A stretch of 64,000 nucleotides of DNA from an uncultured Oscillibacter sp. (lineage in GTDB: Bacteria; Bacillota; Clostridia; Oscillospirales; Oscillospiraceae), in NCBI GenBank assembly GCA_946551795.1, contig CAMNRF010000001.1:62001-126000 (forward strand). Direction: 5' to 3'. This document shows, piece by piece, positions 8,312 to 19,287 of this stretch (positions are counted from its first letter, which is position 1; each line of letters opens with the position of its first letter). Under the pieces are notes generated by a model. That model did not search any database. It was given only the letters and a program-made list of their open reading frames with translations, and had not been told where the DNA came from. Position numbers and translations under genes: made by a program.

Positions 8312-8343
8312 AGGACACGGCTGCGTATTACGCAGCCGTGTCC
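8312..8343. terminator. Bidirectional terminator between XRE gene (+) and rnpB (-)
   Basis: GGACACGGCTGCG-tatta-CGCAGCCGTGTCC; U-rich tract on the minus side. Confidence 0.8.
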
Positions 8344-8351
8344 ATACTTTT

Positions 8352-8885
8352 ACGAGCAAAACTGTAAGCCGGGTTCTGTATTTGACAGTCATCTATCTAG
8401 GCGTACCGTTGCCGGCACGCTCAAGCCACCTCCTGAGGACGGCCGGGCCAGCCTGTTGAGTCCTCCCACGGTGTTGCTCCGGATAGAGTTTACAGCGACG
8501 GACAGTTCCCAGCCGTCGGGTGCGCTCTTACCGCACCTTTCCACCCTTACCATTACGGCAAAACCGCAATGGTAAGGGTGGAAAGGTGTCCGCCCCCATA
8601 GGGGGCGGTCCGCTGCGGCGGGGTTGATTGAAATCGTGAAAGGCGGGCCTCGCCGGCCCCCTTTCACACTATCCCCCGCTTCCCGGCTCCGCTGCGCGAT
8701 TGCCGGGAACGCAGTGATCCATGTTCCTTATCAGCACGGTTTTACCGCAATGGCGGTATATCTCTGTTGCACTTTTCCTGAAGTCGCCTTCGGCGGGCGT
8801 TACCCGTTATCCTTGCCCTGTGGAGCCCGGACTTTCCTCATGGACGGCCTTTCGGCCTGCCCACGCGACCGTCTGTTTTACTCGC
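8352..8885 (-). ncRNA. rnpB: RNase P RNA (class A), with a greatly expanded P12 region
   Basis: Minus strand: GAGGAAAGTCCGGGCTCCACAGGGCA, GTGCAACAGAGA, GTGCGGTAAGAGCGCACC, CTAGATAGATGACTGTC..ACAGAACCCGGCTTA; P1 CGAGTAAAAC/GTTTTGCTCG. Confidence 0.96.
8583..8672 (+). repeat. Two-hairpin repeat element copy 1 (inside rnpB P12)
   Basis: CCGCCCCCATAGGGGGCGG hairpin + TCCGCTGCGGCGGGGTTGATTGAAATCGTG core + GTGAAAG..CTTTCAC hairpin + CACAC; core shared with 19067-19155. Confidence 0.75.
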
Positions 8886-18945: not shown

Positions 18946-19022
18946 GCGTCCGTAGCTCAGCAGGATAGAGCGTCCGCCTCCTAAGCGGAAGGCCAGCGGT
19001 TCGAATCCGCTCGGGCGTACCA
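18946..19022 (+). tRNA. tRNA-Arg (anticodon CCU)
   Basis: GCGTCCG acceptor, TAGCTCAGCAGGATAGAGC D-arm, CCGCCTCCTAAGCGG anticodon arm (CCT), GGTTCGAATCC, encoded CCA. Confidence 0.96.
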
Positions 19023-19066
19023 GAAGAAAGAGACAGCCATCGGCTGTCTCTTTCTTCTGGTACGCC
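19014..19066 (+). repeat. Perfect 25-bp inverted repeat/terminator-like hairpin that includes the tRNA-Arg 3' end
   Basis: GGCGTACCAGAAGAAAGAGACAGCC-atc-GGCTGTCTCTTTCTTCTGGTACGCC. Confidence 0.95.
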
Positions 19067-19155
19067 GCCTTTTGCCTTTTGCAAGAGGCGGTCGCTGCGG
19101 CGGGTTGATTTCAATCATGCGGAAAAAACCCGCAAAGGTTTTTCCCGCACACACC
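19065..19155 (+). repeat. Two-hairpin repeat element copy 2 (downstream of tRNA-Arg)
   Basis: CCGCCT..AGGCGG hairpin + TCGCTGCGGCGGGTTGATTTCAATCATG core + GCGGaAAAAACC..GGTTTTTcCCGC hairpin + CACAC. Confidence 0.75.
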
Positions 19156-19287
19156 CTTTTCCTCGCGTAATCGGGGAGTTTTCTAAAATACCAAAGGTCT
19201 TCGCGGTGTTGGCGGCTGGACTTGTCGGGAAAACCGTGATATAATTGCTTTAGAACTCGGGGAGGAGGAATTTGCGGGGATTGACAC

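Follow-up and report, generated by a model that had tools for sequence, protein, structure and literature searches.

In an Oscillibacter genome, the RNase P RNA gene (rnpB) holds a long fold-back in P12 that is most likely the insertion scar of a small dispersed hairpin element. We regard it as fairly probable that the element entered P12 and left behind an inverted copy of host sequence, with the native P12 kept as a ~28-bp helix and an alternative hairpin made possible. A puzzling RNase P RNA that may be bistable is thereby tied to a statistically clear and recurrent insertion scar at tRNA genes, from which we infer how the insertion may have proceeded.

The rnpB gene and its expanded P12

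The window, i.e., the whole stretch of 64,000 nt that was analyzed, carries rnpB on the minus strand, as the initial annotation had it, although the gene measures 536 nt and not 534 nt. The match to the RF00010 covariance model scored 256.7 bits (gathering score 100) and was complete over model positions 1–367. As had been claimed from the letters, the excess length sits in P12: the RF00010 alignment placed all notable extra sequence there, in a P12 region of ~224 nt versus 32–60 nt in many relatives. The match was single, and a check for an intact second rnpB in this genome (85.7% complete) found none. A perfect 15-bp hairpin at window positions 8313–8343, directly downstream of rnpB, is probably its terminator. 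Two other assemblies of the genus each contained two rnpB sequences, i.e., G024 (L040 and L045, with differing P12 inserts) and G059 (L004 and L049), in which mixed strains or true duplicates are both possible.

The 5' side of the expanded P12 consists of the segments A, A', and Xdeg, and the 3' side of X', B, and C (Table 1). A' and Xdeg form a degenerate first copy of the P12 3' strand and the start of CR III, and are the partner of B-X' in an extended P12. An inverted-repeat search recovered the proposed 25-nt fold-back with 96% identity between the arms and a spacer of 5 nt. The alternative pairing of the 5' with the 3' P12 strand, put at 17 bp in the initial annotation, proved real and longer, as A-C, A'-B, and Xdeg-X' together make a helix of ~28 bp by way of the degenerate copy GAUAAGG. 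The RNA fold of positions 8534–8760 (minus strand) had a z-score of −10.3, and 0 of 200 shuffles were equally stable.

Table 1 Coordinates, strands, and supporting evidence of rnpB, tRNA-Arg, and element features in the window.
Feature	Position	Strand	Evidence
rnpB, class A RNase P RNA with expanded P12	8349..8884	(-)	RF00010, 256.7 bits, full model
P12 5' strand (A) CCAUUGCGG, native-fold partner of the 3' strand	8745..8753	(-)	RF00010 alignment; A-C pairing in ten genomes
A' + Xdeg, CCGUGCUG-AUAAGG	8726..8739	(-)	direct/inverted repeat alignments
Dispersed hairpin element (hp1, GAUUUCAAUCA, CCGCCGCAGCGG, hp3)	8590..8680	(-)	model R1 match C1:70583-70679, E 4.8e-17
Fold-back 5' arm X'-B, inverted copy of CR III/P12 3' strand	8564..8588	(-)	inverted-repeat search
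5-nt loop of the fold-back	8559..8563	(-)	inverted-repeat search
Native P12 3' strand and start of conserved region (C-X)	8534..8558	(-)	RF00010 alignment; inverted repeat
tRNA-Arg(CCU), second element host in the window	18946..19022	(+)	
Fold-back 5' arm at tRNA-Arg: last 9 tRNA nt and terminator arm	19014..19038	(+)	
Fold-back 3' arm at tRNA-Arg, ending in the inverted copy of the tRNA 3' end (TGGTACGCC)	19042..19066	(+)	
Second element copy in the window	19065..19160	(-)	model R1 match C1:81065-81160, E 1.6e-19

A dispersed element and inverted host copies beside tRNA genes

The insert had been taken for a repeat, and its core (hairpin, GAUUUCAAUCA, CCCGCCGCAGCGG, hairpin) indeed recurs as a dispersed element elsewhere in the window's genome and in related genomes. 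Model R1, built from 24 copies, gave some 65 strong matches in the genus. Many copies lie directly 3' of tRNA genes in antisense orientation, and tandem arrays of two or three copies were observed (L066, L155, L074, L197, and G101:C18:14489-14761). When 85,462 species were scanned for an exact pattern, a strict one that divergent relatives could escape, the element was detected in the Oscillibacter/Dysosmobacter group only. The public records with a match are named Oscillibacter, Dysosmobacter, Oscillospiraceae, or uncultured Clostridia, which places the genome in this group. The element is a small, non-coding, hairpin-forming, lineage-specific repeat of the Oscillibacter/Dysosmobacter group.

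Several identities were considered for the element. No Rfam family matched at its gathering score at the copies within the window, and a known Rfam RNA was rejected since only sub-threshold, chance-like matches were obtained, in four copies. A REP/RAYT or IS200-derived repeat was not supported either, with no match to a Y1 transposase (PF01797) in the window's genome (86% complete) although several element copies are present there. In a search of nine genomes, RVT_1 matches were found in G000 (the window's genome), G064, G097, G100, G012, and G099 and none in G080, G101, and G017, i.e., reverse transcriptase genes do not clearly track the element. The mixed alignment of element copies was poorly registered for consensus-structure covariation (only 8 pairs) and served sequence search only.

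Beside the second element copy, the last 9 nt of tRNA-Arg (19014–19022) recur as an inverted repeat at 19058–19066. At tRNA sites read in the direction of the element, the element comes first, followed by X', the terminator hairpin, and the tRNA, and X' repeats the 3' end of that tRNA in inverted orientation. This matches the order in rnpB, i.e., element, X', P12 hairpin, and CR III.

We measured the reach of the terminator stem into the mature tRNA for genes with an element within 100 nt and for genes without one, and the window's own genome contributed both kinds. The stem entered the mature tRNA by 4–16 nt in 23 of 24 element-adjacent genes versus 2 of 46 element-free genes (p = 4e-15), by 4 nt in each of these two, in a set that includes orthologous loci so that the cases are not fully independent. 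Extensions of ≥6 nt were found in 21/24 and 0/46, respectively (Fisher p about 5e-15). The difference was also seen within isoacceptors, with extensions with versus without the element of 10–13 versus 1 and −4 (Cys), 9 and 13 versus ≤1 (Tyr), and 8 and 12 versus −3 (Lys). A tRNA-Ala near a weak element copy had no extension. Given that the copied sequences vary with the tRNA (Cys, Lys, Tyr, Ser, Leu, Gly, and Arg), X' was made at each site. The fold-back duplication described for rnpB is supported, yet it is not specific to this gene, as inverted host copies mark the tRNA-adjacent copies of the element too. A GACA[CG] motif was shared by the terminators of 13 of the 24 element-adjacent tRNA sites (0/46 without the element), and the terminator hairpin may thus be part of the element and not of the host.

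Among the rnpB and tRNA-Arg relatives compared, no clean and unambiguous ancestral empty site, i.e., one without the inverted copy, was found. In G097, the closest relative, the terminator region of the orthologous tRNA-Arg has itself been remodelled by other repeats and contains a direct duplication, long but imperfect (L221 1108-1370). Host flank is directly duplicated around several element copies at rnpB and at gene ends, with identical stretches that reach at least 50 nt, and the gene-end copies showed the direct duplication and no clear inverted copy. One such case is the end of a dapH-like gene (named from its sequence) in G102, where at least 50 identical nt are directly duplicated around an element copy (L200 1443-1492 and 1615-1664) and the reading frame is kept. 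Literature searches of open-access text found no description of the repeat, nor of host-copy scars of such regularity.

Origin of the fold-back

The mirror-copy scar wherever the element adjoins a tRNA gene suggests that DNA can be inserted at hairpins by a hitherto undescribed route. In our model, the element would settle beside host hairpins, i.e., tRNA terminators and the P12 hairpin. A 3' end at the base of the host hairpin would fold back (hairpin-primed snap-back synthesis) and copy 4–25 nt of the flank, after which synthesis would switch template to the element. The scar, lying between the 3' end of the element and the host hairpin, would repeat in inverted form the host sequence on the far side of that hairpin, and a return upstream would sometimes yield a direct duplication of the target. 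In rnpB, the copied flank would be the P12 3' strand with the start of the conserved tRNA-binding region, and the native P12 would persist as a ~28-bp helix with the element as its cap. A version that uses reverse transcriptase is possible. Only tentatively do we extend this to a mobile family that uses hairpin-primed snap-back synthesis to enter structural RNA genes at their ends, each insertion leaving beside it antisense sequence to part of a tRNA or RNase P RNA, with the degenerate second copy guarding the RNase P RNA during transcription. The system offers a handle on the spread of small gene-less bacterial repeats and the origin of long perfect hairpins, and on the means by which an essential ribozyme tolerates antisense sequence to its conserved region.

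Template switching creates and maintains perfect RNA hairpins (PMC8794818), and ordinary replication template switching at inverted repeats could have made and maintained the fold-back, with the element a bystander at a hot spot. In the ten fold-back genomes, B-C pairing comprised 88 Watson-Crick pairs, 2 GU pairs, and 0 mismatches, and A-C pairing 85, 4, and 1, respectively. In G100 and G090, B follows C even where the pairing of A with C breaks or weakens, as palindrome correction predicts. The inverted copies at 23/24 versus 2/46 tRNA sites are unexpected for a bystander, however, and this explanation is rather doubtful. Since palindrome correction would do the same, the tracking of C by B is no proof of a fold-back function at the RNA level, a warning that seeming covariation in fold-back stems can stem from palindrome maintenance and not from RNA-level selection.

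The genus sample comprised 86 genomes, including that of the window (G000). The relatives do not all have a long P12; the region spans 32–295 nt across 59 rnpB genes and holds several unrelated inserts. The fold-back was present in ten genomes (G000, G097, G100, G002, G080, G012, G090, G017, G062, and G108), and in G017, G062, and G108 the P12 stem sequence differs from that of the other seven. Five genomes (G028, G006, G093, G007, and G024) have the insert core in common and lack the long CR III copy. An assembly artefact was rejected as the source of the fold-back because many independent genomes carry it, including G108, which is a single contig. In both the rnpB-core tree, which is weak, and the LigA tree, which represents one linked gene, genomes with the fold-back are interspersed with relatives that lack it, and a single-clade origin of the insert is not supported by this patchy placement. 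Given the range of lengths, the unrelated inserts, and the scattered fold-back genomes, we conclude that P12 is a turnover hot spot with no ancestral helix common to all, and that close relatives vary in whether they carry the insert. A different dispersed repeat, unrelated to the element and marked by the motif GAACCCAGCGMAGCGG, fills P12 in other species of the genus (G011, G023, G061, and G082; loci L025, L039, L125, and L128) and was also found outside rnpB.

A long P12 that was inherited and repeatedly lost, or that moved between species by recombination, would agree with the A'-Xdeg sequence that seven genomes have in common, indicating one shared origin among those seven, and with the scatter of these genomes in the trees. 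It is nevertheless quite improbable, as short P12 regions are common in the genus and P12 content was wholly replaced within tight groups (G062/G108/G017 versus G023/G061). This alternative concerns history and is compatible with the fold-back being an insertion scar.

Predicted competing folds and known systems

Because X'-B-C-X is also palindromic, a hairpin pairing B with C and X' with X competes with the ~28-bp P12. This alternative hairpin of 18–25 bp is predicted to be able to sequester the conserved strand after P12. The GUAAGG closure of P12 and the GUGGAAA segment are present, and the native fold is possible, with the fold-back predicted to be more stable. The forced native fold was worse than the fold-back by a predicted 7–16 kcal/mol in 9/10 genomes and 1.3 in G080, in energies computed without tertiary contacts, Mg2+, or protein. 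Over 56 rnpB genes, the median energy gap was 8.7 for the fold-back class versus 1.3 for the others (maximum 3.4).

In growing-prefix folding, which gives the equilibrium for each prefix and is not a kinetic simulation, native pairs dominated at the end of C in 10/10 genomes, and the fold-back won only once X (the conserved strand) had emerged. The native fold was still dominant at the end of P13 in four of the ten. This order suggests native-first folding followed by a more stable trap, and we infer that transcription order could protect the native P12 kinetically and that the fold-back may be tolerated in vivo.

Among the seven genomes with the same insert, mean identity was 92–95% for the arms A, A'+Xdeg (92%), X' (CCACCCTTACC; 95%), and C+X, versus 74% for the element and 53% for the spacer, a pattern suggesting that the long P12 probably forms. 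Formation of the extended P12 would be expected to keep A'+Xdeg conserved, whereas the fold-back on its own would not. The two mutually exclusive P12 folds of the initial annotation thus stand as computed in ten genomes and make a bistable RNase P RNA computationally credible, a functional bistable switch being hypothetical. A selected regulatory switch, in which the fold-back covers the conserved region to turn the RNase P RNA off until a signal releases it, could explain why ten genomes keep full B-C pairing and the large predicted stability gap, but it is very unlikely given that the tRNA scars lie beyond the predicted terminator, where both arms would not normally be on one transcript, that close relatives without the insert exist in a patchy distribution, and that neither a ligand nor a conserved feature of regulation was found.

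REP/BIME-type and other bacterial palindromic repeats are, like the element, short, non-coding, palindromic, and dispersed, whereas here the junction carries an inverted host tRNA or rnpB copy and a Y1 transposase was not found in the genome. Group IIC introns prefer sites adjoining terminator hairpins, a preference that the element shares, but the element is ~100 nt, has no recognizable intron domains, and comes with inverted host copies. Rickettsia palindromic elements also enter functional genes, and we know of no host fold-back scar for them. STRR sequences are reportedly short tandem heptamer-type repeats inside cyanobacterial rnpB; they were rejected as the identity of the insert, which consists of hairpins and inverted repeats with no tandem heptamer-type units. 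The rnpB of heterocyst-forming cyanobacteria with STRR repeats (Vioque 1997, as cited in PMC2858038) is alike in having repetitive DNA within the gene and P12 as a tolerant site, and differs from the structured hairpin element and host-derived fold-back described here. RNA hairpins made by template switching (PMC8794818) likewise gain inverted copies in one event and have palindrome arms that are later homogenized, whereas here the inverted copy is recurrently tied to a dispersed element and to the ends of functional RNAs.
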